From a virus: 40,578 nucleotides of DNA. The stretch lies in the IMG/VR virus record IMGVR_UViG_3300048918_000407, positions 1-40,578 of that record; one strand, 5' to 3'. Both the position numbers and the translations under genes were made by a program. The notes under the pieces were generated by a model that saw only the letters and a program-made list of their open reading frames with translations, was not told the origin of the DNA and ran no database searches. The number at the start of each line of letters is the position of its first letter. Within the stretch, counting starts at the first letter, position 1. This document shows, one piece after another, positions 3,627 to 40,154 of this stretch.

Positions 3627-3793
3627 CCATCTGCACCGGCATCAACCCATCTGACATCCCCTGTGCCGACCTGAAGCTGTTGGAGATGTCCCTGGCCTCA
3701 CGCATCGACAAGGACGTGACGATGCTGCTTGAGGTGCGCGCAGAACTCCGTCGTCGTGCCAAATCTGTTGAGCTTTCATCAACGGAAGAGTAA
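3623..3793 (+). CDS. Small hypothetical protein
   Basis: 56 aa from ATG 3623, overlapping the previous TGA and preceded by GAGGGGGAG. The protein is mostly helical (LKLLEMSLASRIDK, then TMLLEVRAELRRRAK) with no recognisable domain. Its last codons contain an exact copy of the dispersed 17-bp palindrome (3767-3783), which lies just ahead of the next gene's ribosome site. Confidence 0.6.
   Translation: MTICTGINPSDIPCADLKLLEMSLASRIDKDVTMLLEVRAELRRRAKSVELSSTEE
3767..3783. promoter_or_regulatory. Dispersed palindrome GTTGA-N7-TCAAC, copy 1 (exact)
   Basis: GTTGA-GCTTTCA-TCAAC at the 3' end of the small gene, ending 11 nt before ATG 3795, with GGAAG (3784-3788) directly after it. The position suggests control of the metallophosphoesterase gene by a protein dimer or an RNA hairpin. 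Confidence 0.55.
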
Positions 3794-3794
3794 A

Positions 3795-4664
3795 ATGTCA
3801 TCACATGGGCCACAAACGGAACCGCGATCTATGACGCTCCCTAAGCGCCACTTCGTGATACCCGATACACAGGTCAAGAAAGGCGTGCCGATTGACCACA
3901 TGACGTGGATCGGGGCCGCCATCCGTGACTACAAACCCGACGTGGTCATCCACCTGGGTGACCACTGGGACTTCCCTTCTCTCTCCCGTTACGACGCCAA
4001 GGGGTCCCTGGCCACCGAAGGCGCGCGCGTTGAAGACGACATCGCGTCAGGCAATGAAGCTCTGGCCCTCCTGACCCGCAGCATGGGCCGCTTCAAGGGC
4101 CGCAAGATCATCTTGGAAGGCAACCATGAAAACCGACTTGTCCGAGCTATCAACGAGGATCCACGCCTCGCTGGGACCCTCGGCTACCACCTACTCAATC
4201 GTGAGCGCCTCGGGTGGGAGGTTGTGGATTACTTCTGCGGAGCTCCTGGACAAATTAAAGTCGATGGTGTTGTGTACGCCCACTACTTCAGCGCCGTCAA
4301 CACCGGCCGCGCCATTGGTGGAACCGCCAACAACAAGCTCAACCACGTAGGCGAACCGTTCGTGCAGGGCCACGTGCAGGGTTACGACGTCGGATCCAAG
4401 CAGTACGCCACGGGCAAGATCAAGCAGGGCATCGTGGCCGGCTCGGCCTACCTGCACGACGAAGACTACAAGGGCATGGCTAACAGCCACTGGCGTGGCG
4501 TGCTTGTGCTCAACGAGGTACGCGACGGCCAGTTCTGCGCGATGCCTCTCACTCTGGATTACCTGTGCCGCAAGTACGAAGGCGTGGGCCTTGACCGGTT
4601 CCTGCGCCGTAAATACCGCAATGCGGTCCAGCGATTCACTCTCGCCCGAGGGCTTGCAGCGTGA
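3795..4664 (+). CDS. Calcineurin-like metallophosphoesterase
   Basis: 289 aa. The metal-ligand blocks of the family are in order: IPDTQ near the N-terminus, HLGDHWDF (GDxxD-like) at about residue 50, GNHENR at about 110, an AHYFSA histidine and a late QGHVQGYD block supplying GH-type ligands. The enzyme should hydrolyse phosphomono- or diesters with two metal ions; the substrate is unknown, with nucleic acid ends or nucleotides likely in a phage. ATG 3795 follows GGAAG at 3784-3788; an in-frame start at 3729 lies inside the previous gene. Both the site and the palindrome at 3767-3783 sit directly upstream. Confidence 0.85.
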   Translation: MSSHGPQTEPRSMTLPKRHFVIPDTQVKKGVPIDHMTWIGAAIRDYKPDVVIHLGDHWDFPSLSRYDAKGSLATEGARVEDDIASGNEALALLTRSMGRFKGRKIILEGNHENRLVRAINEDPRLAGTLGYHLLNRERLGWEVVDYFCGAPGQIKVDGVVYAHYFSAVNTGRAIGGTANNKLNHVGEPFVQGHVQGYDVGSKQYATGKIKQGIVAGSAYLHDEDYKGMANSHWRGVLVLNEVRDGQFCAMPLTLDYLCRKYEGVGLDRFLRRKYRNAVQRFTLARGLAA

Positions 4665-4852
4665 TGGATCTCAACCACAACCCCAAACACGAACCCTCCA
4701 AGTTCCCTCAGCAGAGCATCACGCTCAAGACGATGGAAACGGTTTTGCACCACGTCGAGCTTTTGCTTCTGCACGGTCATCAGGTGGCCATCGTTGCCGA
4801 CGGTGACGGCTGGTCCGTATCCACCACCTTGCGTTCGGGGCATGTGAAATGA
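4661..4852 (+). CDS. Small hypothetical protein
   Basis: About 63 aa, starting at GTG 4661 or ATG 4664, both overlapping the metallophosphoesterase stop. The sequence TVLHHVELLLLHGHQVAIVADGDGWSV suggests a compact alpha-beta fold. No family recognised. It overlaps the next gene by 4 nt, so it is likely translated as part of the operon. Confidence 0.6.
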   Translation: MMDLNHNPKHEPSKFPQQSITLKTMETVLHHVELLLLHGHQVAIVADGDGWSVSTTLRSGHVK

Positions 4853-5298
4853 TGGAAGATTCGATACTTCATGCGCATCGCTTGTACAAAGAACGCATGT
4901 CCCTCCCTACGGACGCCGCGTCACGTGAGCAGTATCCGATGGCCGATGGCCTGCTGGATTACTTCCCCAACGCACTGGCCGAAGTCTCGCGGTTGTCGAA
5001 GGTCGGTAACGACCAGCACAACCCGGGCCAGCCCATGCACCACAACCGCGACAAGTCCACGGACCACGCCAACAAGGTGATCAAGCACCTGGTCGATCGC
5101 GGCAAGTTCGATACGGATGGCGTGCGCCACTCCGTCAAGGCCGCGTGGCGCGCGCTGGCGTTGGCCCAGGAAGAGATCGAGCGGGACGAAGGCGCTCCCT
5201 TGCCGCGCGGCTGCAAGACGACCAAAGAACATCGACGCGTTGCGACACGTGAGGATCTCGACGCGGCAGGACTCACGCACCTCACACTGAGGGATTAG
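4849..5298 (+). CDS. dATP/dGTP diphosphohydrolase-domain protein (DUF5664 type)
   Basis: 149 aa. The core DYFPNALAEVSRLSKVGN, HNPGQPMHH, KSTDHANKVIKHL and HSVKAAWRALALAQEE is highly characteristic of the phage domain annotated as the N-terminal dATP/dGTP diphosphohydrolase domain, an all-alpha, MazG-like NTP hydrolase relation. The His/Asp/Glu residues in these blocks are likely metal ligands. The role would be changing dNTP pools during replication. I see no PurZ or other sign of a modified-base pathway. Start is GTG 4849 or ATG 4852, overlapping the previous stop. Confidence 0.8.
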   Translation: MMEDSILHAHRLYKERMSLPTDAASREQYPMADGLLDYFPNALAEVSRLSKVGNDQHNPGQPMHHNRDKSTDHANKVIKHLVDRGKFDTDGVRHSVKAAWRALALAQEEIERDEGAPLPRGCKTTKEHRRVATREDLDAAGLTHLTLRD

Positions 5299-5301
5299 CG
5301 T

Positions 5302-5505
5302 ATGAAAATGCCCAACATTCTCTGGCTTTGTTTCGTGCTTCTGGTGTTGTCTCTGGCCGAACTGGTCTTCATCGTCACGACCATAGTGTTGAGCTTTGCT
5401 CATCTCTGGGTGTGTGCCGGCGCGTGCGCGGCTGCAGTGATCGCGGTTGGCTTCGTCGAAAGTCAGATGGTTCGTGAGTTCTGGGACGTGGAGGACGCGA
5501 CGTGA
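5302..5505 (+). CDS. Small two-helix membrane protein
   Basis: 67 aa. Two hydrophobic segments, at about residues 5-32 and 34-52, are separated by a short turn, followed by a charged tail (REFWDVEDAT). GAGGGA at 5289-5294 precedes the ATG. An inner-membrane protein is inferred; no family recognised. The 3' end overlaps the next GTG by 4 nt. A near copy of the dispersed palindrome (GTTGA-GCTTTGC-TCATC, 5388-5404) lies inside the gene. Confidence 0.6.
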   Translation: MKMPNILWLCFVLLVLSLAELVFIVTTIVLSFAHLWVCAGACAAAVIAVGFVESQMVREFWDVEDAT

Positions 5506-5690
5506 GCGTGATGGAAGAGTTCAACGCGTTCGCCTTTCAGCGCGCACGCAGCAAGTACCTCCGGCGCCAGTTCAAGGAAATGGAGCACAACGACTGGGTT
5601 GCCCTGGTCGAGGGCTACATGACCCAGAACGAACGCCTGGAAGCGGAGATCGAGGGGCTGGAATCCGATCTGGCGGAACTGCGTGACTGA
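5502..5690 (+). CDS. Small coiled-coil protein
   Basis: 62 aa. GTG start overlapping the previous TGA. The second half (NERLEAEIEGLESDLAELRD) has clear heptad spacing of Leu/Ile and would form a coiled coil; the first half is basic and aromatic. No family recognised. It overlaps the SNF2 helicase start by 8 nt, so it could be a partner or simply coupled to it. Confidence 0.6.
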   Translation: MSVMEEFNAFAFQRARSKYLRRQFKEMEHNDWVALVEGYMTQNERLEAEIEGLESDLAELRD

Positions 5691-7038
5691 GCTCGCCCTG
5701 CCACTCGATTGGCAGTTGGAGGGTTCGCAGTTTCTTGCGGAACGGACTCAGGCGTTCCTTGCGGACGAGCCGGGCGTGGGCAAGTCAGGCCAGGCGGTCA
5801 GGGCGTGTGATTTAGTTGGCGCTTTGAACATCCTGGTCCTCGTCCCGGCGAGTGTTCGCGTTAACTGGCTGAACGAATTCAAAAAATTTTCACCTTTCGA
5901 CCGTCAAGAAACCGCCGTTTTCGACGGAAAAACGTCACCGGGTGCCGAAGGGGTGACGGTGTGTTCTTACGACCTACTGGCCAACAAGAAGCTGCGCGCG
6001 TCTCTCATGGCGAGACGTTGGGATGTTCTCATCCTCGATGAGTCGCACATGTTGAAGGCGCGAACGGCCTCACGAACCAAGACGGTGTACGGCCGCAAGA
6101 GTGATGGCGTGGCCGGGCTGATGACGTCTGCGAAGCACGTGTGGCGACTGTCGGGAACACCCGCACCCAACTTTGTGGATGAGCTGTGGACTCATTTGCA
6201 CAGTGCAGGTCTATATCCAAAGAATTACTACGATTTTGTCGATGAGTTTTGCACCGGTTTTAAATCCGATTACGGCTTTCGAATCAATGGCACGAAGAAT
6301 GCACAACGTCTCCGCGCCTTACTGAAACCTTTCATGTTGCGCAGGAAGAAAGCCGACGTGTTGCCTAAGTTGCCGCCCATTGAATTCGAGCACCGCACCG
6401 TGGAACCCACGGCCGTGGATGCACGTGCGTACTTCGGCACGTTGAAGGAATTCGACCCGTACTTGCACGAGGATTTGCAGAAACAAAACGCGCAGTTAAA
6501 GGATGCTGTCGCAGTCGGTGATAACACACTGGAATATCTTCGTAGTGTCGCCACGTCCGTCGGCACACTGCGCCGGTACATCGGTCTATCGAAAGTACCC
6601 GGCTACCTCGACGTGGTGAAACCCGAATTGAAAGCGCGACGATTCGACAAACTGTTAATCGGCGCGTGGCATACGGATGTCATCGAGGCATTGCGCACAG
6701 GGCTTCGTGAGTTCGGTGCGGTCACGCTGTTTGGCGGCACACCGGCCGAGAAGCGCCAGCACTTGCTGGACAAGTTCAAGACCAACCGCGCGTGCCGTGT
6801 GTTGATCTGTCAGGTAAAGGTGGGCATCGGTTTCAATGCAACCGCGGCCTACAGGGTGGACCTGTTGGAACCCTCGTGGGTGCCTGCAGAAAACAAGCAG
6901 TTTATTGACCGTGCTCACCGCATCGGCCAGGACTGCGCAGTGACGGTGCGCTACTTCGGCTGCAACCGCAGCGTCGACGCAGACATCACGAAAGCGTTGG
7001 CGCTGAAAGGACGCGAATTAGCGAAAGTTTTCGATTGA
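5683..7038 (+). CDS. SNF2-family DNA helicase/ATPase
   Basis: 451 aa, GTG start overlapping the previous gene. Helicase motifs in order: Walker A DEPGVGKS at 28-35, VLVPASVRVNW (motif Ia region) at about 52, DESH Walker B at 119-122, SGTP (motif III) at about 158, QVKVGIGFNAT (motif V) in the C-terminal lobe and RAHRIGQ (motif VI) at about 410-416. These are the SNF2/Rad54-type signatures. The protein is short, with no nuclease or chromatin domain, as for phage versions that move along or remodel DNA in replication or recombination. GC content of the middle part looks lower than in the replication genes. Confidence 0.9.
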   Translation: MTELALPLDWQLEGSQFLAERTQAFLADEPGVGKSGQAVRACDLVGALNILVLVPASVRVNWLNEFKKFSPFDRQETAVFDGKTSPGAEGVTVCSYDLLANKKLRASLMARRWDVLILDESHMLKARTASRTKTVYGRKSDGVAGLMTSAKHVWRLSGTPAPNFVDELWTHLHSAGLYPKNYYDFVDEFCTGFKSDYGFRINGTKNAQRLRALLKPFMLRRKKADVLPKLPPIEFEHRTVEPTAVDARAYFGTLKEFDPYLHEDLQKQNAQLKDAVAVGDNTLEYLRSVATSVGTLRRYIGLSKVPGYLDVVKPELKARRFDKLLIGAWHTDVIEALRTGLREFGAVTLFGGTPAEKRQHLLDKFKTNRACRVLICQVKVGIGFNATAAYRVDLLEPSWVPAENKQFIDRAHRIGQDCAVTVRYFGCNRSVDADITKALALKGRELAKVFD

Positions 7039-7064
7039 CATATGCCGTTCGGTGTTGAGACAAT
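7035..7064 (+). promoter_or_regulatory. Probable sigma70 promoter
   Basis: A perfect -35 box TTGACA at 7035-7040 overlaps the helicase stop codon. With an 18-nt spacer, GACAAT at 7059-7064 is a four-of-six -10 box. It sits in a rare gap between coding regions upstream of the gene at 7104. The palindrome at 7054-7070 covers the -10 box, so a bound protein would block transcription. Confidence 0.55.
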
Positions 7065-7070
7065 ATCAAC
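7054..7070. promoter_or_regulatory. Dispersed palindrome, copy 2 (exact), over a -10 box
   Basis: GTTGA-GACAATA-TCAAC. It overlaps the predicted -10 box and ends 33 nt before ATG 7104. This is the copy most easily read as a repressor operator. Confidence 0.6.
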
Positions 7071-7103
7071 ATCGCGGCCACAACGAGTGAAAGGAGCTTT
7101 TGC

Positions 7104-7589
7104 ATGTTTACACTGACCATCCAGGTCTCGTCGATCGACGAAGCCGAGCGCATTCTGGCCGCGCTGAAACATACCGCTGATCCTGCTGCTGTCGCGCAGG
7201 TGGAAGACCAAGTGTTCGCGGGCCCGAGCCCGTCGACCCTTATCGAAAATCCCGAAAAAAATTCTCCGGCAATCGAGCAAACGCCGCGCCGCCGCGGTCG
7301 TCCGCCGAAGGCCGACCAGAAATCTGCTGCGCCGGTTGCAGAATCCGGTTCGGCGGCAGTAGCACCGGCGCTAGAAGAACAGCCGGCCAGCGAGCCCGTC
7401 GTTCAGTCGGCGCAGCAGACCCTCTCGATCGACGACGCGCGCAACGCGCTCAAGGAAGTCCAGGCCAAGTACGGCGCGGCTGATATGGCCAAACCCCTGG
7501 CACTGCTTGGTCAGTTTGGCGCGAATCGCGTGTCAGAAGTGAAGGTCGAAAAGTACGCGGAGTTCATTGCCGCATGCAAGGCAGCGTAA
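7104..7589 (+). CDS. AT-hook protein with conserved-looking C-terminal domain
   Basis: 161 aa. AAAGGAG at 7090-7096 precedes the ATG. The N-terminal 35 residues form a small alpha-beta segment. RRRGRPPK at residues 62-69 is an AT-hook-like minor-groove binding motif, followed by an Ala/Pro/Glu-rich linker. The C-terminal 50 residues (DDARNALKEVQAKYG, LLGQFGANRVSEV, FIAACKAA) form a compact helical domain seen in phage replication-region proteins. A DNA-binding accessory role in replication is inferred. It is the first gene after a promoter and overlaps the next ATG by 1 nt. Confidence 0.72.
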   Translation: MFTLTIQVSSIDEAERILAALKHTADPAAVAQVEDQVFAGPSPSTLIENPEKNSPAIEQTPRRRGRPPKADQKSAAPVAESGSAAVAPALEEQPASEPVVQSAQQTLSIDDARNALKEVQAKYGAADMAKPLALLGQFGANRVSEVKVEKYAEFIAACKAA

Positions 7590-7918
7590 TGGCTCGCTGG
7601 TGGGAAATCGATATCCGCTCGGCCGCCAAGCGCAAGCTAGCGCCGAAGGCGGCGTATCGGCCCCGTAAAGAGGCGCCCCCGCGGGACATGGTCAGTGGCA
7701 TCACTGCGTGGTGCCTGTACATGGCCACCAAGGACCACGCCAAGGCCAAGGGGCAAGCTCTGTACATCACGTACGAGCTGATGGGTTTGGGCAATAGCAC
7801 GTCCGAGAGGATGCGCAACTCCAAACCCATCGCGCAAGCCACGGCCTTGAAGATCCTGAAGTACCTGGGCACAGACGTGCGTGCAGTGTTGAGTAAATAT
7901 CAACCGGAGAACAAGTGA
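7589..7918 (+). CDS. Small basic protein, possibly DNA-binding
   Basis: 109 aa from ATG 7589 (TAATG overlap with the previous stop). The N-terminus is strongly basic (SAAKRKLAPKAAYRPRK). The C-terminal half (LYITYELMGLGNSTSERM, then QATALKILKYLG) has the spacing of a helix-turn-helix, but the match is weak. No family recognised. The last codons hold an exact copy of the dispersed palindrome, just before the next gene's ribosome site. Confidence 0.65.
   Translation: MARWWEIDIRSAAKRKLAPKAAYRPRKEAPPRDMVSGITAWCLYMATKDHAKAKGQALYITYELMGLGNSTSERMRNSKPIAQATALKILKYLGTDVRAVLSKYQPENK
7888..7904. promoter_or_regulatory. Dispersed palindrome, copy 3 (exact)
   Basis: GTTGA-GTAAATA-TCAAC, ending just before the GGAG ribosome site (7906-7909) of the gene at 7918. 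All 17 bases equal the reverse complement of the copy at 39122-39138, which in turn precedes the large terminase gene on the other strand. Confidence 0.6.
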
Positions 7919-8175
7919 TGGCTAAGGCAACCGTTCGCTACGCACGACCCGCTCCGCCACCCATTGACGCAGTGTTGCTCCACCTGTCGGATTTCGAAGC
8001 GCAGGTGCTTGTGGGTTTGATCGACCGCCACGTGGCAGGCCGCAGTACGGCTCGTGATGCCCTGAGTAACATTAACTCAGCACTCGCAAATGCCGGCGTC
8101 ACTGCCGCGGCGTTTCGCGCCAAAGAACGTGGGAACCACGGTCCGACCGGTGTATTGATCGTGGAGGATCTGTGA
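7918..8175 (+). CDS. Small hypothetical protein
   Basis: 85 aa from ATG 7918 with GGAG at 7906-7909; a GTG at 7915 is also possible. The protein has a helical middle (LLHLSDFEAQVLVGLIDRHV) and a C-terminal stretch containing GPTGVLIVEDL. No family recognised. It overlaps the nuclease GTG by 4 nt, so it is probably co-translated with it. Confidence 0.6.
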   Translation: MAKATVRYARPAPPPIDAVLLHLSDFEAQVLVGLIDRHVAGRSTARDALSNINSALANAGVTAAAFRAKERGNHGPTGVLIVEDL

Positions 8176-9353
8176 CCCTCCCGGCTCACTCCCGCGTTGG
8201 CGCCAGTGGCATGTCCCGTTGGGAAAAGGATCACTGCCCGGGCTCCGTGCAGTTGTCCGCGGGCCTTGAATCAAAGTCCGGATACGCGGCGGCCGAAGGC
8301 ACGGTGGCGCACATGCTCGGCGAGCTTGCCCTGCTAGGCAAGCCGTACAAGACCATGCTCGGTCAAATCATCGAGCAGGACGGTTTCAAGATCGAAGTCA
8401 CCAAGGAGATGATCGAGTTCGTCACCGAATACAAAGTGACAGTCGATGACTTGTGCGACAAGGACACGGTCCGGCACGTGGAACACAAGTTCCATCTGAA
8501 GGATCTGCACTCTTCCCTGTTCGGTACGTCGGACTGCGTGCTGTGGCATCCGAAGCGCAAGCACCTGGACGTGATCGATCTGAAGTACGGGGCCGGCCAC
8601 GCGGTCGAAGTCCACGGCAATCCACAGCTGCAGTACTACGCGTTGGGCGCCATGGTCACGCTGAAGTATCCGGCGCAGACCATTGGCCAGCATATTTTCC
8701 AGCCGCGGTGCCCGCACAGTGATGGCCCCCACCGCACGGCCGAGATCGACGCGATGGACGCGCTCGACTTCGCCGGTTACCTGGTGGCGTCCGTGCGCGA
8801 GACGGAAAAGCCCAACGCCGCGGTACGTGCCGGTGACTGGTGCCGTTACTGTCCGGCCGCGGGCGTGCCAGGCAAGTGCCCGGTGCAGGAGAAGTTGCCG
8901 CAGGAGTTGGCCAAGTCCGTGTTCGCCGCGGTGCCCGTGGCCATCGGCTATGACCCGGCCGAGCTCAAGAAATGGCTGGACCGTCTGCCGATCCTGGAAG
9001 CCCAGATCAAGGCCGTGCGTGAGTTCGCGTACGACGAAGCGGAAGCCGGCCGCACGCCCCCGGGGTACAAGCTGGTGGAGAAGCTCGGGCGCGAGAAGTG
9101 GAAGCCAGACATCTCCGCGCGCGCCTTGATCGCGGAGTTCGACTTAAGCAGCAAGGATCTTTTCGAAGAGCCCGAGCTGAAGTCCCCGGCCCAGGTGCGC
9201 AAGCTGGTCCCGGGCAAGAACGACAAGGAACGGGCGGCGAATCTCTCCAAGTTCACCGTCAAGGAATCCAGCGGCCACGCCCTGGTCCATGAAGACGACA
9301 AGCGCCCCGCGATCAACCTCACACCCCAGGCCGTTTTCGCACGTGCCGAGTGA
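8172..9353 (+). CDS. DUF2800-type RecB/Cas4-like nuclease
   Basis: 393 aa, GTG start after GGAGG at 8163-8167. The family pattern is clear: an N-terminal WEKDHCPGS segment, GTSDCVL at about 118-124, VIDLKYGAG at about 133-141 (the D...DLK nuclease core) and NPQLQYYAL (motif with Gln/Tyr). Three cysteines in DWCRYCP and GKCP, together with C22, could hold an Fe-S cluster as in Cas4/AddB-type nucleases. It probably processes DNA ends in phage recombination. Immediately followed by the ssDNA-binding protein, the usual pairing for DUF2800 and DUF2815. Confidence 0.87.
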   Translation: MTLPAHSRVGASGMSRWEKDHCPGSVQLSAGLESKSGYAAAEGTVAHMLGELALLGKPYKTMLGQIIEQDGFKIEVTKEMIEFVTEYKVTVDDLCDKDTVRHVEHKFHLKDLHSSLFGTSDCVLWHPKRKHLDVIDLKYGAGHAVEVHGNPQLQYYALGAMVTLKYPAQTIGQHIFQPRCPHSDGPHRTAEIDAMDALDFAGYLVASVRETEKPNAAVRAGDWCRYCPAAGVPGKCPVQEKLPQELAKSVFAAVPVAIGYDPAELKKWLDRLPILEAQIKAVREFAYDEAEAGRTPPGYKLVEKLGREKWKPDISARALIAEFDLSSKDLFEEPELKSPAQVRKLVPGKNDKERAANLSKFTVKESSGHALVHEDDKRPAINLTPQAVFARAE

Positions 9354-9368
9354 TGAGATTTTCTCAAC
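9352..9368. promoter_or_regulatory. Dispersed palindrome, copy 4 (one mismatch)
   Basis: GATGA-GATTTTC-TCAAC, starting at the nuclease stop and ending 21 nt before the ssDNA-binding protein ATG. The inner bases extend the symmetry to GATGAG/CTCAAC. It falls in the only gap of this stretch. Confidence 0.45.
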
Positions 9369-10012: not shown

Positions 10013-11974
10013 ATGACGATTCTGCACATCGATTTCGAAACGCGCAGCGTCGCCGATCTGAAAGCGATTGGCCTGGACAACTACGCGCGCGATCCGTCGA
10101 CCGATATCTGGTGCATGGCGTACGCATTCGATGACGGCCCGGTGCAGCTGTGGGACTCACGCACCTCCATGGATGGTCTGGGAGTCTGGGAGCACATAGA
10201 CGCGGGCGGTATCGTGTACGCGCACAACGCCGCGTTCGAACTGGCCATCTGGAACGCCGTGCTGGGGCTGGCCTATTGCCCCATGAAGCCGGAGCAGGTG
10301 CGCTGCACGATGGCCACGGCCTACGCCATGGGCTTGCCCGGTAGCCTGGATGGAGCGGCCGCCGCGCTTGGCATCGAGCAACGCAAGGACGCCAAGGGCT
10401 CGCGCGTGATGCTGCAGCTGGCCAAGCCGCGCAAGGTCAACGACGATGGCTCGCCCGTCTGGTGGGACGACCCGGTCAAGCTCCAAACCCTCTACGACTA
10501 CTGCAAGCAGGACGTCGAGGTCGAGCGCGCGCTGCACAAGCGCATGGTCGAACTATCGGCGGACGAGCAGTCCCTTTGGCATCTCGACCAGGTCATCAAC
10601 GCGCGCGGCATCCAGATTGACGCCCAAGCGATCGATGCCGCGATTGACCTGGTCACCGCCGAGAAGACCCGGCTCGACGAGGCCATGCGCAAGACTACGG
10701 GCAACGTGGTCGCCGGCTGCACCGACGTGCGCCAGCTCACTGCATGGTTACGGTACAAGGGCGTGGATACCCCCGGCATTGCCAAGGCGGATGTCGGTGA
10801 ACTACTAAAACGTGACGATTTAGTAGATGAATGCCGAACCGCGTTGATGCTTCGCCAAGAGGCGGCCAAGTCCTCTACCGCCAAACTGGTGGCGATGCGT
10901 GACCGCGCCGGACCCGATGGCCGCATGCGTGGCTTGTTCCAGTACCACGGCGCGGCCACGGGCCGGTGGGCCGGGCGCGGGCCGCAGCCGCACAATTTCC
11001 CCCGCCCTACCCTCCTGCACGATCAGGACAACATCGAGGACGTGATCGCGCACTTCGGGCAACCCGAATACTTGCGCGTGTTCTACGGTGACCCAATGCC
11101 GCTGACGGCCGACTGCATGCGCGGCATGATCGTGGCCGGGCCGGGCAAGGAACTGGTCTGCTGTGACTACTCTAACATCGAAGGCCGTGTGCTTGCGTGG
11201 CTGGCCGGTGAAGAGTGGAAGCTCCAAGCCTTCCGCGAGTTCGACGCCGGCACGGGTGCGGACCTATACCTTCTGGCTTACGCCAAGGGCTTCCGCTGCA
11301 GTCTTGAGGCGGCCAAGCCGTTCCGCCAGGTGGGCAAGGTCATGGAGCTGGCCCTCGGCTACGGTGGCGGCGTGGGCGCGTTCCAGAAGATGGCCCGCGG
11401 CTACGGCGTGGTTGTATCCGACGAGCGGGCAGACGAACTGAAGGTCGCCTGGCGCGGCGCGCACCCCCAGGTGGGCAAGTTCTGGCGTGACCTGGAAGCC
11501 GCGGCCATTCGCGCGGTGCAGGACGGCGGCGTCCACAAGGTGCGCGGCATCGCCTTCAAGGTGGCCGGATCCTTTCTATGGTGCCAGCTGCCGTCCAAGC
11601 GCGTGCTGTGCTACCCCTACCCCCAGATCCGCAACAAGGAAACGCCCTGGGGTGCGGTCGTGCCGGCACTCACGTACATGGCCGTCAACGGTGTCACGCG
11701 CAAGTGGGAACGCTGCGACACCTACGGCGGGTCCCTGGCCGAGAACGTCACCCAGGCCGTGGCGCGCGACATCCTGGTGGCTGGCATGCGGGCCGTCGAA
11801 GCCATTGGCGCACCGGTGGTGATGCACGTGCATGACGAAATCGTTTGCGAGTGCAATCTTCACGAAATAAGTGTTGACGAAATCGCAACAGTGATGTCAA
11901 ATGTACCTCACTGGGCAACAGGACTTCCCGTTGCCGCCACGGGCTGGCAAGGCCAGCGGTACAGAAAAGATTGA
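10013..11974 (+). CDS. Family A DNA polymerase with 3'-5' exonuclease
   Basis: 653 aa from ATG 10013 (GGAG at 10004-10007); an in-frame ATG at 9965 would start before the hairpin and is unlikely. The exonuclease domain shows HIDFET at residues 5-10, a NAAFELAIW block near 75 and YCKQDVEVER (motif III) near 165. The polymerase domain has motif A CCDYSNIEGR, motif B around KVMELALGYGGG and motif C VMHVHDE, in order. It is the phage replicative polymerase. There is no 5' nuclease domain, as in other phage enzymes of this size. It is flanked by the ssDNA-binding protein and the primase-helicase. Confidence 0.95.
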   Translation: MTILHIDFETRSVADLKAIGLDNYARDPSTDIWCMAYAFDDGPVQLWDSRTSMDGLGVWEHIDAGGIVYAHNAAFELAIWNAVLGLAYCPMKPEQVRCTMATAYAMGLPGSLDGAAAALGIEQRKDAKGSRVMLQLAKPRKVNDDGSPVWWDDPVKLQTLYDYCKQDVEVERALHKRMVELSADEQSLWHLDQVINARGIQIDAQAIDAAIDLVTAEKTRLDEAMRKTTGNVVAGCTDVRQLTAWLRYKGVDTPGIAKADVGELLKRDDLVDECRTALMLRQEAAKSSTAKLVAMRDRAGPDGRMRGLFQYHGAATGRWAGRGPQPHNFPRPTLLHDQDNIEDVIAHFGQPEYLRVFYGDPMPLTADCMRGMIVAGPGKELVCCDYSNIEGRVLAWLAGEEWKLQAFREFDAGTGADLYLLAYAKGFRCSLEAAKPFRQVGKVMELALGYGGGVGAFQKMARGYGVVVSDERADELKVAWRGAHPQVGKFWRDLEAAAIRAVQDGGVHKVRGIAFKVAGSFLWCQLPSKRVLCYPYPQIRNKETPWGAVVPALTYMAVNGVTRKWERCDTYGGSLAENVTQAVARDILVAGMRAVEAIGAPVVMHVHDEIVCECNLHEISVDEIATVMSNVPHWATGLPVAATGWQGQRYRKD

Positions 11975-15452: not shown

Positions 15453-15488
15453 CAAAGGCTTAGCCGAAGCTAAGCCTTTGTTTTTATT
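15453..15488 (+). terminator. Strong intrinsic terminator
   Basis: A perfect 12-bp stem CAAAGGCTTAGC/GCTAAGCCTTTG (15453-15464 and 15469-15480) with a CGAA loop is followed by TTTTTATT. It should end the rightward replication transcript before the attachment core. On the reverse strand only a short T-rich stretch follows. Confidence 0.9.
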
Positions 15489-15537
15489 GGTGGGCCGTGA
15501 AAGATTCGAACTTTCGACCAATTGATTAAGAGTCAAC
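15488..15537 (-). other. tRNA-Lys(CUU) 3' half: probable attP core
   Basis: Read on the minus strand, 15537 to 15488 gives the 3' half of a tRNA-Lys: anticodon stem GTTGA, loop CTCTTAA with anticodon CUU, stem TCAAT, a TGGTC variable loop, a T-arm GAAAG-TTCGAAT-CTTTC (15515-15499), then acceptor ACGGCCCACCA. It agrees closely with the E. coli and Xanthomonas-type tRNA-Lys as I remember them. No matching 5' half with GGGCCGT and a D-arm follows on the other side, so this is not a complete tRNA. A phage copy of a tRNA 3' end beside an integrase is the usual form of attP, restoring the host tRNA on integration. Crossover in the anticodon region is likely. Confidence 0.85.
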
Positions 15538-15538
15538 G

Positions 15539-15567
15539 TTGACAGTATGTCTACACCTGAGTAAGCT
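15539..15567 (+). promoter_or_regulatory. Possible integrase promoter
   Basis: TTGACA at 15539-15544, 17-nt spacer, TAAGCT at 15562-15567 (three of six). The -35 box is part of a perfect 12-bp palindrome GTCAACGTTGAC (15532-15543) that overlaps the attachment core. Weak -10, so low confidence. Confidence 0.3.
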
Positions 15568-15649: not shown

Positions 15650-16753
15650 ATGGAGCTTTCCTCATCAGCGCTCGCTGCGGCGGCGGCCGGCAGCACCCTA
15701 CGGGACAAGACTGTCCCCGGACTCCACGCCAAGGTGTCTGCCACCGGCCGGCGGTTCTTCCTGTACTTCCGAACCAAGGGCGGCGTCGAGCGCCGGCCGA
15801 AGCTCGGCGACTTCCCCCTGATGACGGTGGCGCAGGCGCGCATCGTCGCCAAGGAAATGCTGCTTGAGGTAGCCAAGGGTAACGACCCGATGGCGGCCCG
15901 GGAGATCGAGCGTGGCGCGGACACGGTGAACCAGGCGATCGACAAGTACGAGAAGGAGTACGCTCCCAAGCGCAAGACCGGCAAGCAAACGGTCAACCTG
16001 CTGCGTCTGCACTTGGGTAAAGCCCATGGCTCGGACCGGATCAAGAACGTCACCTATTCCCACATGTCCGCCCTCCACGGAAAGATGAAGGACACGCCGG
16101 TGCTGGCCAACCGCATCCTGGCCTACGCCAGTAAGCTGTTTTCCCTGGCCGAGAAGTGGGAGATGCGGTCGAAGAATTCCAACCCTTGCCACGGCATCGA
16201 GCGGTACAAGGAATTCAAGCGCAAGCGCCGCATGACGCCGGCCGAGGCCAAGGCAATTGCCGAGAAGCTGAACCAGTATAAGACAGCGCACCCGGAGGCC
16301 GTGGCGTTCGTATACCTGCTGATCCTCACCGGCGCGCGCAAGGGTGAGGTGGCCGCGGCCAGGTGGGAATGGCTCGACGGTAACGTGCTGCGCCTGCCTG
16401 ACTCCAAGACGGGGGAGAAGCCCGTATACCTGCCGCCGGCGGCCATGGCGCTGATCGACCAATTGCCCAAGACGTCAGGCACGATCACCGGTATCGCGTG
16501 GCCGTACAAGCTATGGTACAAGGTGCGTGCCGAGGCCGGTTGCCCAGACTTGCGCCTGCACGACCTCCGCCGTTCGTTCGCCTCGGTGGCACTAGACTTG
16601 GGCTACTCGTTGGCGCAGATTGGCGAACTGTTGGGCCACGCTTCCACCCAGACCACGGCCGGCTACGCGTGGCTGCAGGCAGACGTGGCAAAGGATGCGG
16701 TCGCCAGGACAGCGGCGGCCATTGGCCAGCAACTTACGGGAGCGGCGTCATGA
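15650..16753 (+). CDS. int: Tyrosine integrase with DUF4102-type arm-binding domain
   Basis: 367 aa from ATG 15650; the frame is open back to a TTG at 15539, but that stretch is the attachment region. The N-terminus (LRDKTVPGLHAKVSATGRRF, then PKLGDFPLMTVAQAR) is the arm-site binding domain of P4/Sf6-type integrases, followed by a helical core-binding domain. Catalytic residues: R230 (LTGARKGEV), K at about 253 (DSKTGEK), H/R at about 303-306 (LHDLRRSF), H at about 329 (LLGHAS) and Y at about 338 (TAGYAWLQ). It should recombine attP with a host tRNA-Lys gene. Only a weak AGG lies upstream as ribosome site. The stop overlaps the next ATG. Confidence 0.92.
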   Translation: MELSSSALAAAAAGSTLRDKTVPGLHAKVSATGRRFFLYFRTKGGVERRPKLGDFPLMTVAQARIVAKEMLLEVAKGNDPMAAREIERGADTVNQAIDKYEKEYAPKRKTGKQTVNLLRLHLGKAHGSDRIKNVTYSHMSALHGKMKDTPVLANRILAYASKLFSLAEKWEMRSKNSNPCHGIERYKEFKRKRRMTPAEAKAIAEKLNQYKTAHPEAVAFVYLLILTGARKGEVAAARWEWLDGNVLRLPDSKTGEKPVYLPPAAMALIDQLPKTSGTITGIAWPYKLWYKVRAEAGCPDLRLHDLRRSFASVALDLGYSLAQIGELLGHASTQTTAGYAWLQADVAKDAVARTAAAIGQQLTGAAS

Positions 16754-18281: not shown

Positions 18282-18700
18282 GGGACGATTCCCGCCAGCG
18301 CCAGGCCGGCATCGATCACGGTTCGTAGGTAGATGTTCCGTCCGTTCTCGTGGCGAATGATTGCGTTGACGAGGGGGAACATCTGGTCGTATTGCGTGAC
18401 GTCCAGGTGCGTGTTCGGATCGACCTTCATAGTCGACGCCACAGCGCTGACGTATGCCGCCGTGTTGTTCTCGTTCTCCGGGGCCCAACGTTCGACGATG
18501 GCGCGCACCGTGTCGAAGCCCTTATGTTGATAAACAATCAACACTTTAGCCAAAGCTCGGATGCCATATTTCACATCGGTGAAGACGCAAAAGTCGGAGT
18601 CCGTTTGCTTCGCGGCCAAGCCTTGCCAGTTCGAACCTAGGCGCAAATTGCCTGGATTGTTGTTGCGTTCGCCGCGAGTGCTGCTCGTTCCGATCATCAC
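18278..18700 (-). CDS. Endolysin, lytic transglycosylase/muramidase type
   Basis: About 140 aa from GTG 18700 or ATG 18697. The N-terminal RGERNNNPGNLRLGSNWQG, followed by FCVFTDVKYGIRALAKVL and ERWAPENENNTAAYV, is the pattern of the family called structural protein P5-like endolysin in phage annotations, a peptidoglycan-cleaving fold. No signal peptide or membrane segment is seen, so release would depend on the holin. The gene order (XhlA-like, endolysin, protease, holin, spanins) supports the call. It contains an exact dispersed palindrome at 18526-18542. Confidence 0.8.
   Translation of the reverse strand: MMIGTSSTRGERNNNPGNLRLGSNWQGLAAKQTDSDFCVFTDVKYGIRALAKVLIVYQHKGFDTVRAIVERWAPENENNTAAYVSAVASTMKVDPNTHLDVTQYDQMFPLVNAIIRHENGRNIYLRTVIDAGLALAGIVP
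18526..18542. promoter_or_regulatory. Dispersed palindrome, exact copy inside the endolysin gene
   Basis: GTTGA-TAAACAA-TCAAC. Unlike the others it lies inside a coding region, codes for part of LIVYQHK, and lacks the G that follows GTTGA in gene orientation elsewhere. It may be a roadblock-type site or chance. Confidence 0.3.
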
Positions 18701-21014: not shown

Positions 21015-21041
21015 GGATGGGCTTTCCGAGGATACGTTTCT

Positions 21042-21047
21042 ATTATA
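21042..21047 (-). promoter_or_regulatory. Possible -10 element for tail spike and lysis genes
   Basis: A perfect TATAAT on the minus strand lies 28 nt before the tail-spike start, in a 51-nt gap. No good -35 box is seen at normal spacing. TCAAC-A-GTTGA (21048-21058), an inverted version of the dispersed half-sites, sits directly behind it, so an activator-dependent promoter is possible. Confidence 0.3.
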
Positions 21048-21065
21048 TCAACAGTTGAGGTGCAA

Positions 21066-30183: not shown

Positions 30184-30905
30184 GGCGTTTGCCCCATGAC
30201 GGTCACCGTCGCCACCGTTGTGCTGGTGACACCAGTGATCAGCATCCACACCCACTGCGTTGCCGCAGCAGTTGCGACGTTGTTGAGTCGAACCATTCGA
30301 CCCACATCGGATGCTTGGAATCCAGCGCCATTGTTGATGCCCGCTGTGGCCGATGCCGTCAGCGTCGCTCCCGTCGTACCCGGAACCGACGACGAACAGG
30401 ATATCTTGGTCGACGTGATGTTCACCGGCAGATATGGCCCATCCTGCATAGCCAGATTGGCCAATACCCAATTGGTGGCACCGAGACGACTCAACGTCGC
30501 TGGCGGGTAATTCGGATGGCAGATGTAGAGGACATCTGCTGACTGAGTGAAGTAGAGCGTCGGCAGGTCGCCGGCGCCGTACGGCGTGCTGACCTGATAC
30601 GGCGTGCCGCCACTAAGCAACTGGCCGCCATTGGTGTAGAACCGAATTTTGTTGGCCGTAAATTCCAGCACATAGGACTGGAACACATTGAACTGGAACG
30701 GCTGCAGCCGAACCACATTCGGATCGGCCGCAGCCGCCACGTACGTCGTGCCGGGGCGGCGCGTCTGCGGCCCTTGCAGCAAGGGAATGTAGTTCACAGT
30801 CGAACTCATCGCCGCCTTTCGTTTGGGCAAGTCGATGCGACCGTAGGTGAGCGGGGACCACTCGCCTGCGTTGAAACTCGTCTGGTAAAAAGTCGCCCGC
30901 GGCAT
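30180..30905 (-). CDS. Tail-tube protein gp12-like, N-terminal part (split gene)
   Basis: 241 aa. Start at ATG 30905 overlapping the gp11-like stop. The N-terminus (YQTSFNAGEWSPLTYGRID, then RPGTTYVA) is the usual start of tail tubular protein B. The frame ends right after ATVTVMGQTP, at a point where homologous proteins normally continue. The rest is in the -1 frame. The shift point is near ATGGGGCAA (30191-30199), with a run of four G. See the downstream part for the possible restart at GTG. Confidence 0.8.
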   Translation of the reverse strand: MPRATFYQTSFNAGEWSPLTYGRIDLPKRKAAMSSTVNYIPLLQGPQTRRPGTTYVAAAADPNVVRLQPFQFNVFQSYVLEFTANKIRFYTNGGQLLSGGTPYQVSTPYGAGDLPTLYFTQSADVLYICHPNYPPATLSRLGATNWVLANLAMQDGPYLPVNITSTKISCSSSVPGTTGATLTASATAGINNGAGFQASDVGRMVRLNNVATAAATQWVWMLITGVTSTTVATVTVMGQTP

Positions 30906-33527: not shown

Positions 33528-33725
33528 TCAGCTCAAGGGGTCGGGTTTGGCCGACTTGTCCTTCTTGCCCTGGGACGTTTGAGGCGTCCCGACAACTGCA
33601 TTGTAATACCTTGTTGCGATATTCTCAACATTTTCCGCAGACCGATCCCCTGAAGCAATAGCGGTCTGCACCGCCAGCTTCAGGCATTCCAGTCGGAAAG
33701 TCGCCACGTCCTGCGGCGGGATCAC
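33528..33725 (-). CDS. Small hypothetical protein
   Basis: 65 aa from a GTG overlapping the previous stop. A helical N-terminus (RLECLKLAVQTAIASGDRS) precedes AENVENIATRYYNAVVG and a Lys-rich tail. This resembles small helical phage proteins encoded near coat genes; the function is unknown. A one-mismatch palindrome (GTTGC-GATATTC-TCAAC, 33613-33629) lies inside. Confidence 0.6.
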   Translation of the reverse strand: MIPPQDVATFRLECLKLAVQTAIASGDRSAENVENIATRYYNAVVGTPQTSQGKKDKSAKPDPLS

Positions 33726-35367: not shown

Positions 35368-35370
35368 CGA

Positions 35371-37050: not shown

Positions 37051-37053
37051 GAC

Positions 37054-37251
37054 TTAGCAGGTCACCTGAAAGGGCGACGTATGCGGCAAGTTCGGCGTCT
37101 GCCCGAGCTTCAACCAGTCGTAAGTTGGCGTCACCTTGGTGAAGGCAAGCGCCAAATGGTCCTGGATTGCTTTCCACTGTGCGGCCGTCGGAGGCTTGTC
37201 AGTCAGCTCAGCGAAGCCCTGAAGCCAATAGCAGAAGTCCTGCGGGGTCAT
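37054..37251 (-). CDS. Small hypothetical phage protein
   Basis: 65 aa starting MTPQDFCYWLQGFAEL and continuing PTAAQWKAIQDHLALAF, a pattern shared by short phage proteins encoded near portals and terminases. Function unknown. It ends 3 nt before the portal start. An exact dispersed palindrome (37279-37295) lies 27 nt before its start. Confidence 0.65.
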   Translation of the reverse strand: MTPQDFCYWLQGFAELTDKPPTAAQWKAIQDHLALAFTKVTPTYDWLKLGQTPNLPHTSPFQVTC

Positions 37252-37278
37252 CAGATTGATTCCCGTTCGATACAGTCA

Positions 37279-37295
37279 GTTGAGCCTTGCTCAAC
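37279..37295. promoter_or_regulatory. Dispersed palindrome, exact copy before the portal group
   Basis: GTTGAGCCTTGCTCAAC, symmetry extended to 7-bp arms (GTTGAGC/GCTCAAC) around three bases. It sits in a 64-nt gap, 27 nt upstream of the gene at 37251 on the minus strand. No T-run follows on either side, so it is not an ordinary terminator. Confidence 0.6.
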
Positions 37296-37315
37296 ACTGC
37301 GGGCGCAAGAACGCA

Positions 37316-37540
37316 TCACGGGCCTGAGCCCCCCAGCAAGCCGCTGGTCGAAGACACCGTGCCCAGGTTCCCCAAACCGGAACCGCCATTGAGCACGGTG
37401 CTCGACCGGCCGCCCGCCTGCAGGCGCGCCTGCTCATCTTGCTGGGCCTTGGTGATCTGGGTGTTGTTCGCGGCCTGAGTCGGCACCGGGGGCGGTGCGA
37501 CGGGCGCGGGCATTTTGGGGCTGGAAAACAGGCCACCCAT
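37316..37540 (-). CDS. Small hypothetical protein
   Basis: 74 aa from ATG 37540, with AGGTG five to nine nt upstream; a GTG at 37549 directly after the terminase stop would add three residues. The product is Pro-rich at the start (KMPAPVAPPPVPTQAANN) and Gly/Ser-rich at the end. No domain recognised, although similar short Pro/Gly-rich proteins occur between terminase and portal in related phages. Confidence 0.6.
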   Translation of the reverse strand: MGGLFSSPKMPAPVAPPPVPTQAANNTQITKAQQDEQARLQAGGRSSTVLNGGSGLGNLGTVSSTSGLLGGSGP

Positions 37541-37549
37541 AGAGATCAC

Positions 37550-39121
37550 CTATCGCAAAAAGGATTTCGATGTGCCCAGTATATCGTAACTTACATCCCG
37601 GGCGACAGTGCCGCGACGGTTGTGCCGGCTCGATCGGATGTCGTTCCGCGCCACCGTATGGGCAAAGGTCATGCTCAGCGCATCTGCTTCGTCGGGGGAT
37701 GCAAGGCCGCGACCCTTGGCCTCTTCCTTGGATTCCACCTGCAACTTGCCCGAGAGCTTGTTGTACTTGTACTCGGGGGCCTTCAAGTCATCGGCCAGGG
37801 TGGTGTTGGCCGGGATGCAGCCCGTCAGAAGCCAGTCCTTCATCGTGTCCCAGATCTCGGCGCGCTTGTTCTGGTAACGGTCTTTCTCCTTGGCATCACC
37901 CTGCACCATCACGTCGATGACCTTGTAGCCCATCTGGCGCAACCGGTCGGCCACCGGGCCGCCCACGCCATTGGCATCGATGAACACGGCGTCCGGGTTG
38001 TACTTGCCAATGGCATCCGCCACGTGGTCCGCGAAGACCATGGTCGAGATGCCTTTGTACCGTTGCCACGGGATCGACCGCGCGTCGGCGCCGCGTCGGA
38101 AGGCGATCACGCTTGAGTCCTCGCCGTAGCGGGCCACGTCGATGCCCATCACCAGGGGTGCGCCTGGGTCCGGCGTCAGCTGGCGCTCCGTGGCACCGAT
38201 GATGTTGCTCATCGGGATCAGCTGGCGGGCGCCGGCGTTGGGAAACTCGCCGTAGACCTCGATGCGCGCCTCGTCCGAGTCGGCGCCGTACTGGTCGATG
38301 ATCTTCTGGTAGATCGCCTGGTCGGTGCCCTCGACCGTGCGGGCGTCGATCTTCCGGGCGCGCCAGAAGTTGCGGAACTTGTGGTGGGTTTCGAAAAAGG
38401 CGCCCGTGTTGTTGCGGGGGTTGGAGTAGATGTCCCAGTAGCGGTCGAGCACCGGCTCGGTGAAGAAGCCTTCGGACACGGAGAAGATCGCCTGGGGAAT
38501 GCCGCTGGCCTCGTCCATCACCAGCTTTACGCCATTGTGGTTGTGTACGCCGGCAAAGGCGTCGGGCTTTTCCTCGGACCACAGCTGGGCCTGCAGGTAG
38601 TAATAGCCCGTGTCGATCTTGAGCTGGTCCTTCAGGAGGGTCTCGAACCATTCAGCGGGTTTGAGGCTCATGGCCTGGCGATCGAACCAGTGGGAGTTGA
38701 TCGCCATGGTGTGCCACTTGCCCAGCTCGGCCATGGTTCGGCTGACCAGCTGCTGCTCGGTGTTGGCCGTGATGATCGTGGTCGAGCCTAGCCGGGTGGA
38801 GAGCATGTGGATTCCCTCCATGGCCACCTCCGCGGACTTGCCGATACCGCGGCCGGACGCCTTGGAGCCCATCCACATGAGTGGCTGTTGGCCCATGGCG
38901 ATCCGGTGTTTGTTGTTCCGGATGTGCTCGGTCTTCTGCTCCAACTCTTCGATCTGCCATTTCCTTGGCTCCTTGAATTTTTCGAGCGGGGTGTTGGCCT
39001 TGCCCCAGGGGAAGACGAACATGACCCAGGCGCGCAGGTCGTCAGCCAAATTCGGATCCCACAGCTCGGTCATGAGCGTTTGCTCATCGGCGGCGGAATA
39101 AAGCTGTTTGGCCTTCGGCAT
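37550..39121 (-). CDS. Terminase large subunit
   Basis: 523 aa. ATPase: Walker A-like GSKASGRGIGKSAE at about 85-98 and Walker B LVMDEASG at about 204. Nuclease: GIDVARYGEDSSVIAF with the first Asp, VFIDANGVGG with the second and DEADALSM with the last acidic cluster, in RNase H-fold order. It pumps DNA into the procapsid and cuts it. The ATG lies directly behind the palindrome at 39122-39138, with no normal ribosome site visible, so its translation may depend on that element. Confidence 0.93.
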   Translation of the reverse strand: MPKAKQLYSAADEQTLMTELWDPNLADDLRAWVMFVFPWGKANTPLEKFKEPRKWQIEELEQKTEHIRNNKHRIAMGQQPLMWMGSKASGRGIGKSAEVAMEGIHMLSTRLGSTTIITANTEQQLVSRTMAELGKWHTMAINSHWFDRQAMSLKPAEWFETLLKDQLKIDTGYYYLQAQLWSEEKPDAFAGVHNHNGVKLVMDEASGIPQAIFSVSEGFFTEPVLDRYWDIYSNPRNNTGAFFETHHKFRNFWRARKIDARTVEGTDQAIYQKIIDQYGADSDEARIEVYGEFPNAGARQLIPMSNIIGATERQLTPDPGAPLVMGIDVARYGEDSSVIAFRRGADARSIPWQRYKGISTMVFADHVADAIGKYNPDAVFIDANGVGGPVADRLRQMGYKVIDVMVQGDAKEKDRYQNKRAEIWDTMKDWLLTGCIPANTTLADDLKAPEYKYNKLSGKLQVESKEEAKGRGLASPDEADALSMTFAHTVARNDIRSSRHNRRGTVARDVSYDILGTSKSFLR

Positions 39122-39138
39122 GTTGATATTTACTCAAC
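39122..39138. promoter_or_regulatory. Dispersed palindrome, exact copy touching the terminase ATG
   Basis: On the minus strand GTTGA-GTAAATA-TCAAC-ATG. The only purine-rich stretch (GAG) is inside the left arm. Binding or folding here would block initiation of the large terminase. Identical (17 of 17) to the copy at 7888-7904 when read in gene direction. Confidence 0.6.
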
Positions 39139-39212
39139 GTTCATGAAAAATTTTTAGGATTCGCGAACAGCGGCTTCGGCATGGCCCCGGGTGAAACATC
39201 GCGCCAGAATCC

Positions 39213-39230
39213 GGGGGTGCCACCACCCCC
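39213..39230. other. Strong GC hairpin between terminase genes
   Basis: GGGGGTG-CCAC-CACCCCC, a perfect 7-bp stem with a 4-nt loop, flanked by CC and further GG/CC bases. It is located in the 147-nt gap between small and large terminase, which has no supported gene. No T-run follows, so termination is unlikely; a packaging or cos-related site or an mRNA stability element are options. Confidence 0.4.
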
Positions 39231-39268
39231 ACCCGGCCTTTCGCGGCTGGATGGGACCCGCAAACGGG

Positions 39269-39832
39269 TCAGTCGAAGATGTCCGGGAGTGGCGGAGTTG
39301 ATTCGTTATCAATTTGCTGTGCGTGTTGATTGTCTTGTGAATCAATCACTTGCACATCTATGATATCCGCTGGGTCGCACGTGGGTCGCAATTGACTGCG
39401 TGAACGCGCTTCGGCCAGGGCAGATCCGATGTCGATCGTCTGCGTGACATTGATGTCCAGCTTCTCGCCGTAGACCTTTGGAATGAGCTTGGAAGCCAGC
39501 CAGCGCTGCGTATCGATGATCAACCTGGCGCGGTTGACATCGGGCTCGGTGCGCGCCACGTGGTCCATCAAATCAACGCGTTGGTCGATTACGATCGCGC
39601 GCGCAGACCGCAGCGCGTGTTCGAAAGCTGGCATTTCCGCGCGCCACTTGGCGTAGCGATATTGCGTAATTCCCCTTGTTTCCAAACACTTATCGACAGG
39701 CATCCCTGTAAGGAATAAATCCAGGAACGCCTGTTGTTCCTCAGTAATTTGAGGAACGGTGACCTTTGATAGGCTTTGGCTATCGCTCACAGCATCACCA
39801 TAGGAAAATTCAATTACCGATAGTGTTGACAT
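39269..39832 (-). CDS. Terminase small subunit
   Basis: 187 aa from ATG 39832; an in-frame extension to 39913 crosses the promoter. The helical DNA-binding part shows QITEEQQAFLDLFLTGMPVDKCLETRGI (helix-turn-helix like), YRYAKWRAEMPAFEHALRSAR and DLMDHVARTEP, as in Sf6/Bbp-type small terminases. The C-terminus is acidic and Gln-rich. It binds the packaging site and presents DNA to the large subunit. The mRNA leader from the promoter would be only about a dozen nt with no clear ribosome site. Confidence 0.82.
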   Translation of the reverse strand: MSTLSVIEFSYGDAVSDSQSLSKVTVPQITEEQQAFLDLFLTGMPVDKCLETRGITQYRYAKWRAEMPAFEHALRSARAIVIDQRVDLMDHVARTEPDVNRARLIIDTQRWLASKLIPKVYGEKLDINVTQTIDIGSALAEARSRSQLRPTCDPADIIDVQVIDSQDNQHAQQIDNESTPPLPDIFD

Positions 39833-39855
39833 TGCGCCAACGTTGTGGACATTAT
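39826..39855 (+). promoter_or_regulatory. Rightward promoter
   Basis: TTGACA at 39826-39831, 18-nt spacer, CATTAT (four of six) at 39850-39855, reading toward the small genes at 39928. It overlaps a leftward promoter in opposite direction, so the two would compete. GTTGA-CATTGCG-CCAAC (39825-39841), one mismatch from the dispersed palindrome, covers its -35 box. Confidence 0.5.
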
Positions 39856-39879
39856 ACCAACACACCGAACGTCGGTGAA
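39851..39879 (-). promoter_or_regulatory. Leftward promoter for terminase and structural genes
   Basis: On the minus strand TTCACC (39879-39874), 17-nt spacer, perfect TATAAT (39856-39851). The -35 box is only four of six, which with the tandem repeats just upstream suggests an activated promoter. It could drive the whole leftward arc. Confidence 0.6.
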
Positions 39880-39905
39880 CGTCCACGGCCGAACATGGCC
39901 GAACA
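39867..39905. repeat. Helically phased tandem repeats behind the leftward promoter
   Basis: GAACGTC occurs at 39867-39873 and 39877-39883, and GGCCGAACA at 39887-39895 and 39897-39905, each pair with a 10-bp period. Together these share a GAAC core, at 39867, 39877, 39891 and 39901. The position over and above the -35 box fits activator binding sites. Confidence 0.5.
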
Positions 39906-39927
39906 CTACGCAACTTGGGAGAAACAC

Positions 39928-40134
39928 ATGAACCGCCAAACCCTTCGGAACGCCTATCCCTTCCACAACACGCAGCCGTACGTGTCGGTTGGCTACAACC
40001 CTAAGCGTGACGGCAACGCCAACCGCTTCAGTCAGGTGATGGCGAGGATCTTGATCTACGGTATGAGTTCAGCCGTCGGGATTGCCGTGGTGCTGAGCAT
40101 CGCTCACAGCGTGATCAGGGCTTTTGCCGCCTAA
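39928..40134 (+). CDS. Small single-pass membrane protein
   Basis: 68 aa from ATG 39928, with GGGAGA at 39917-39922. The N-terminal half is polar (NAYPFHNTQPYVSVGYNPKR); a hydrophobic segment (ILIYGMSSAVGIAVVLSIAH) lies near the C-terminus. First gene of the rightward set, downstream of the TTGACA promoter. No family recognised. Confidence 0.6.
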   Translation: MNRQTLRNAYPFHNTQPYVSVGYNPKRDGNANRFSQVMARILIYGMSSAVGIAVVLSIAHSVIRAFAA

Positions 40135-40137
40135 ACT

Positions 40138-40154
40138 GTTGCGTTTTTTGCAAC
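40138..40154. promoter_or_regulatory. Palindrome variant GTTGC-N7-GCAAC
   Basis: GTTGC-GTTTTTT-GCAAC has the same 5-7-5 layout with compensating changes in both arms (A to C and T to G), ending 21 nt before ATG 40176. Paired changes that keep symmetry support a functional dyad or a hairpin. Confidence 0.45.

Follow-up and report, generated by a model that had tools for sequence, protein, structure and literature searches.

The window analysed here, the whole 40,578 bases of virus record IMGVR_UViG_3300048918_000407, carries a dispersed 17-bp palindrome, GTTGA-N7-TCAAC, of which about 12 sites were judged genuine. With a probability of roughly 0.85, these sites are operators of a single phage-encoded, dimeric repressor of the lambda CI/LexA type that keeps lysogeny. 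The phage itself is temperate, to judge by a tyrosine integrase gene that lies next to the 3' half of a tRNA-Lys(CTT) gene. The argument was built on the sites, their geometry, the conservation of their positions, the symmetric changes of their arms and the CI-like genes of relatives, all of which can be read in the sequences. From these we infer repressor binding, repression and roadblocking, as follows. In the prophage, the repressor would sit on about twelve sites and silence the lytic genome. The operator lies across a sigma70-type -35 box at seven positions (at 7054, across the -10 box), where RNA polymerase would be kept off by bound repressor; at four promoter-less junctions, the repressor would hinder passing polymerase.

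Copies of the palindrome were counted against dinucleotide shuffles. Six exact copies were present (at 3767, 7054, 7888, 18526, 37279 and 39122), as had been reported in an earlier annotation made from the letters alone (the sequence-only reading), and the shuffles held 0.07 on average and one at most. When up to one mismatch was allowed, 14 sites were found in the window versus 1.1 expected. Spacers of 3-6 and 8-12 bases gave no exact copy in the window, and the enrichment is confined to the 7-base spacer. Five sites, taken in both orientations, gave a symmetrised matrix that returned 15 matches at a score of 14 or higher (five of them the training sites, ten outside that set), versus 0.1 per simulated genome. 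The variants listed in the sequence-only reading at 9352, 33613, 39825 and 40138 proved real, the last being symmetric with two mismatches; sites at 11873, 15538, 39845 and probably 21036 had escaped it. Most of its list was retained, the exception being the exact copy at 18526..18542 (minus strand), which lies inside the endolysin gene and was seen in the window only. The codons in this region of the lysin gene are unusually AT-rich, three relatives use other codons and lack the palindrome, and the copy could have arisen by chance or be an operator of recent origin.

The relatives compared included G001-G006 (primase identity 63-93%) and the more distant MW202898 (44%); a search of phage records for DNA near-identical to the first 24 kb of the window gave no match. 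Sites were found at the same gene junctions of the relatives, ahead of orthologous genes, with arms that read GTGGA/TCCAC, GGTGA/TCACC, GATGG/CCATC or GATGA/TCAAC. Upstream of the metallophosphoesterase gene, for example, the window site reads GTTGAGCTTTCATCAAC, that of G001 GTTGAGCTTTTCTCAAC, that of G002 GTGGACATTTTGTCCAC, that of G005 GGTGACAAAACGTCACC and that of G006 GATGTGATTTTCTCACC. Position was kept and sequence changed also at ssb, at the polA 3' end, at the capsid promoter, after terL, at the integrase promoter and at the divergent terS/early promoter. The arms diverge symmetrically: mirror positions pair in 80.2% of cases (32 sites, eight records), versus 21-52% when slid, and the symmetry extends over 17-21 bp. 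Changes on both sides were counted in 28 cells, versus 12.7 ± 2.7 after shuffling (0 of 500 shuffles), although this count is not a probability, since the 32 sites were lined up by eye, with gene junctions and -10 boxes as guides, near-identical relatives stand among the rows and a few degenerate ones were omitted. Together with the CI-like repressors that relatives encode, the kept places and symmetric divergence support the earlier proposal of a phage-wide operator set. The sites might instead belong to a host regulator exploited by the phage; phages often borrow host regulators, and the window has no CI-like repressor gene. However, the arms differ between close phages at fixed positions, and candidate host genomes, whose tRNA-Lys attachment site is near-identical, had no excess of the motif over a reversed-pattern control. 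This account was considered very improbable.

Bases 2-7 of the site constitute the -35 hexamer. At the seven positions named above (7054 again excepted), the left arm doubles as the -35 box, with a -10 box 17-18 bp beyond it in one or more lineages. Across 38 frames from the lineages, agreement with TATAAT is highest when the spacer measures exactly 17 bp. About 12 window sites are oriented with transcription, as judged in gene direction by the G after GTTGA or by the -35 side. That G, and the placement of sites shortly ahead of start codons, had been described in the sequence-only reading and were recovered here; the gene-direction asymmetry arises because the -35 box reads TTGAC or TTGAG. 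The same reading had offered a second explanation, namely hairpins in the 5' untranslated regions with a 5-bp stem and a 7-nt loop; as RNA elements, these would control translation. The 5-7-5 geometry, the nearness of start codons, the asymmetry and the preservation of pairing as the arms change all suit such hairpins. At most positions, however, the left arm coincides with the -35 box and lies outside the transcript of that promoter, tandem sites span the -35 and -10 boxes of divergent promoters, and no Rfam family matched. The hairpin proposal was abandoned as the least credible of the accounts weighed.

The relation of operator to promoter is as follows. At the divergent terS/early promoter, the early/late control region, two operators with centres 20 bp apart cover the -35 and -10 boxes in both directions. 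O1 (GTTGACATTGCGCCAAC, 39825..39841, plus strand) holds the rightward -35 box TTGACA (39826-39831), and O2 (GTGGACATTATACCAAC, 39845..39861, plus strand) covers two -10 boxes, CATTAT of the rightward promoter (18-bp spacer) and TATAAT of the leftward terS promoter (39851-39856). The tandem pair occupies the same place in G002, G006 and G421, making four lineages with the window. The operator at 3767..3783 (plus strand) lies over the -35 box of the metallophosphoesterase promoter, TTGAGC-17-TAAAAT; the gene likely starts at ATG 3831, and cognate sites were found in G002-G006. The site at 7054..7070 (plus strand) overlaps GACAAT, the -10 box of the 7104/7574 operon promoter, which stands 18 bp after TTGACA (7035-7040); overlap of one copy with a -10 box had been noticed before, and relatives have tandem sites here. 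In the polA 3' end, GTTGACGAAATCGCAAC (11873..11889, plus strand) accompanies a TTGACG-17-TCAAAT promoter towards the primase genes, and the counterpart in G002-4 is an exact GTGGACAAAATGTCCAC. The -35 box of the integrase promoter is covered by GTTGACAGTATGTCTAC (15538..15554, plus strand), and the promoters of relatives fit (TTGACC-17-TATGAT in G004, TTGACG-17-TATCAT in G006). On the minus strand, GTTGAGAATATCGCAAC (33613..33629) lies over the -35 box of a major-capsid promoter, TTGAGA-17-TACAAT, and is kept in G004, G006 and G418, and GTTGAGCAAGGCTCAAC (37279..37295), downstream of terL, has a promoter fit that is weak in the window and good in G004, G006 and G421.

Four positions (class II) have no -10 box and are candidate transcription roadblocks. 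The site at 7888..7904 (plus strand) occupies the final codons of the 7574 gene, ahead of the start at 7915, and the residues encoded there vary with the operator type of each lineage. GATGAGATTTTCTCAAC (9352..9368, plus strand) is at the stop codon of the DUF2800 gene, ahead of ssb; its counterpart is GAGGA/TCCAC in G002-4 and GATGG/CCATC in G006. This site is kept in all close lineages with cognate arms and is therefore selected for something besides a -35 role. GTTGAGTAAATATCAAC (39122..39138, minus strand) stands directly ahead of the terL ATG, has no -10 box in gene direction and is placed alike in G010. GTTGCGTTTTTTGCAAC (40138..40154, plus strand), the symmetric arm variant, lies ahead of the second early gene, and the equivalent place in G421 holds GTTGAGCTTTTGTCATC. 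A half-operator, GTTGATATAATAGAAAC (21036..21052, minus strand), is a matrix match that contains TATAAT just upstream of the fibre gene; judged from the window alone, it is a probable extra site.

Location at gene junctions, and the four positions without a recognisable promoter, would also be expected of true L5-type stoperators, most of which would only stop elongating polymerase. Against this, seven of the 11 positions are embedded in promoters, a -35 and a -10 box being present in one or more lineages, and the sites are palindromic and accompanied in relatives by CI-like repressors, as opposed to the asymmetric monomer sites of L5 (PMC6550527, PMC9283540). Stoperators in this strict sense are unlikely; the likeness to L5 drawn in the sequence-only reading holds for only the minority of sites without a recognisable promoter, and L5 stoperators lack the palindromic form seen here.

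For the preferred reading, that of CI-type operators, a candidate binder was found in relatives. G002 and G006 encode a 204-207-amino-acid protein on the opposite strand, upstream of and divergent from ruvC. The G006 protein has a Cro/C1-type helix-turn-helix (HTH; HTH_3 at 28 bits versus a cut-off of 23, HTH_31 at 30.3 versus 27), and the G002 protein scored just under the HTH_31 cut-off. A Pfam search of the relatives' repressor detected no S24 domain. In Foldseek, the whole model aligned to the lambda-186 hybrid repressor, the best fold match (E 3e-6), and the protein is predicted to be a two-domain, lambda CI/LexA-like repressor. Homologues were present in G417, G418, G419, G421, G030 and G010, and in G010 an operator-like palindrome abuts the repressor gene. 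The recognition helix RTLKGKR occurs with GTGGA arms (G002, G419), HALLKGKR with GRTGW (G006, G418), RTIAGTR with GATGA (G421), and HLIHGNR and HMLRGNR with GTTGA (G030, G010), a pairing that comprises a handful of independent types and was set up without a tree. The changed site sequence of the relatives is apparently matched to a changed repressor.

Several points weigh against this reading. Because no CI-like repressor gene lies in the window, the link is drawn from relatives. Operator types number just four or five, several of them seen in no more than two records, and the records include close kin. G417 (L136) encodes a G002-type repressor, and its divergent site is G002-like as well, but after terL (reverse strand, about 1701-1830) it has a site of the G006 type; the record is possibly a recombinant or a case of relaxed specificity. 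The repressor model has a low-confidence C-terminal domain (the mean predicted local distance difference test score of the model was 67.5, and about 90 in the HTH part). The -10 matches at 17 bp, which speak in favour (means of 2.87 of 6 for all frames, 3.73 for the seven promoter positions and 1.0 for the four others), are qualified in that the split between promoter and non-promoter positions was made partly after the -10 boxes were seen. A test of the -10 boxes in the window only gave a modest P of 0.004, with the 11 positions and their frames chosen by hand.

The missing repressor gene is most simply explained by an assembly gap, since the window begins in a repeat and ends short of the place that the repressor has in relatives. 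Positions 1-233 and 756-1520 share an Ala/Ser/Glu/Trp-rich repeat, with 67 bases identical from 47 and 1259, and the contig probably broke in it. The phage's own repressor gene would then lie between 40578 and 1, in a stretch left unassembled. When an early gene was used to look for the missing segment of the window, only more distant phages came up.

The sequence-only reading had named the products of genes at 1972, 7589 and 14582 as candidate regulators. None is a likely binder, and the gene of the likely binder is missing from the window. The HTH protein of gene 1972 has no homologue in relatives, and the AlpA-like 14582 protein, which matches an excisionase/regulator family, is too conserved while the operators differ. 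The protein encoded at 7574..7918 (plus strand) has a Cro/C1-type HTH fold; its operon sits behind operator 7054 and its gene ends in site 7888, as might be expected of the main binder. Its recognition helix, however, does not follow operator type: G002 and G006 have the helix STYDRLRNCKP in common with different operators, and G002 and G004 have operators in common with different helices. It is unlikely to be the main binder and is at most a second regulator, perhaps Cro-like. The 7104-7589 protein, encoded in the same operon, has a weak AT-hook match (RRRGRPPK).

A fuller version, in which the CI-type dimeric repressor of a little-studied temperate phage group exerts control at two levels (operators fused to -35 boxes and roadblocks at promoter-less junctions) and at least four orthogonal specificities evolved in place across the whole set of sites, is held more tentatively, at somewhat less than an even chance. 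The concept of a master repressor with dispersed sites is already known from P1, phiC31 and L5; the present system resembles these in working but belongs to none of them by sequence or site symmetry, since palindromic operators of CI type, their fusion to -35 boxes and junction sites without promoters occur in it together. The dispersed palindromes of phiC31 bind the phiC31 repressor. Its palindrome, TACTCACGTGAGTA, was counted here in 15 copies, nearly always between genes. The likeness is of pattern only, a conserved palindrome repeated genome-wide at gene junctions; the phiC31 site is unrelated in sequence and differs in its centre, it has no long variable spacer, and the repressor is of another kind (683 amino acids, versus 204-207 for those of the relatives). 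Lambda CI, 186 CI and LexA are like the present system in the predicted HTH, in a putative C-terminal beta domain and in a 17-bp operator with a central base, but lambda operators are clustered at two promoters, whereas here at least 11 positions are spread over the genome. In P1, one master repressor, C1, has 22 widely dispersed 17-bp operators (PMC8546580), so that dispersal, single repressor and site length are shared; P1, compared by site only, differs in its asymmetric consensus, ATTGCTCTAATAAATTT (PMC8546580), and its plasmid prophage. L5 and cluster A phages have 20-30 asymmetric sites, mostly stoperators, and motifs that co-diverge with the repressor between immunity groups (PMC6550527, PMC9283540). 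Their many genome-wide sites oriented with transcription, and the joint divergence of motif and repressor, are similar (PMC6550527), but L5 sites are 13-14 bp, asymmetric, monomer-bound and mostly off promoters, whereas those described here are palindromic and mostly at promoters. What appears to be new is the fusion of CI-type palindromic operators to -35 boxes, together with a natural series of co-diverged specificities.

If correct, this assignment supplies an explicit immunity circuit, open to testing, for an uncultivated phage group. It describes a natural experiment as well, one in which about ten operators keep their places while all change specificity, apparently along with the repressor, and which bears on how a regulator and its whole set of sites can switch sequence without loss of control and on the origin of superinfection immunity groups. 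The series could yield orthogonal repressor-operator pairs for laboratory use.

Three near-matches that the sequence-only reading had not listed were rejected as operators. The match at 15521 is the anticodon arm of the tRNA-Lys 3' half, and that at 5388 is not kept in the nearest relative, G001. The match at 39297 is C-terminal coding sequence of terS and stays GTTGA-like in G002, G006, G417, G418 and G419 whatever their operator type; this near-perfect palindrome (window 39297-39313, G002 109, G006 21694) serves as a coding-driven control. Also rejected was an apparent second dispersed palindrome, GGCGC-N11-GCGCC (L012, L080, L082, G421), which fits pentapeptide-repeat coding, as read from sequence.

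Early genes (RuvC, SNF2, DUF2800 nuclease, Enc34-type single-stranded DNA-binding protein, DNA polymerase and VapE-type primase) are on the plus strand of the window, and structural and lysis genes are on the minus strand. The tyrosine integrase gene (15650..16753, plus strand) is adjoined by the attP-like core, the 3' half of the tRNA-Lys(CTT) gene at 15488-15537. This half-tRNA is matched with one mismatch by the own tRNA-Lys(CTT) gene of bacterial genome G219, a member of the GTDB class to which Nitrosovibrio belongs. In MW202898.1 (L005), no homologue of the repressor was found; GTTGA palindromes lie at 4054 and 16350 of that record; one of the two is upstream of ruvC, the other next to a TTGACA box. 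In G010, two adjoining palindromes follow terL (30640-30720), one of which is GTTGCGATTTTGCAAC, with a 6-base spacer.

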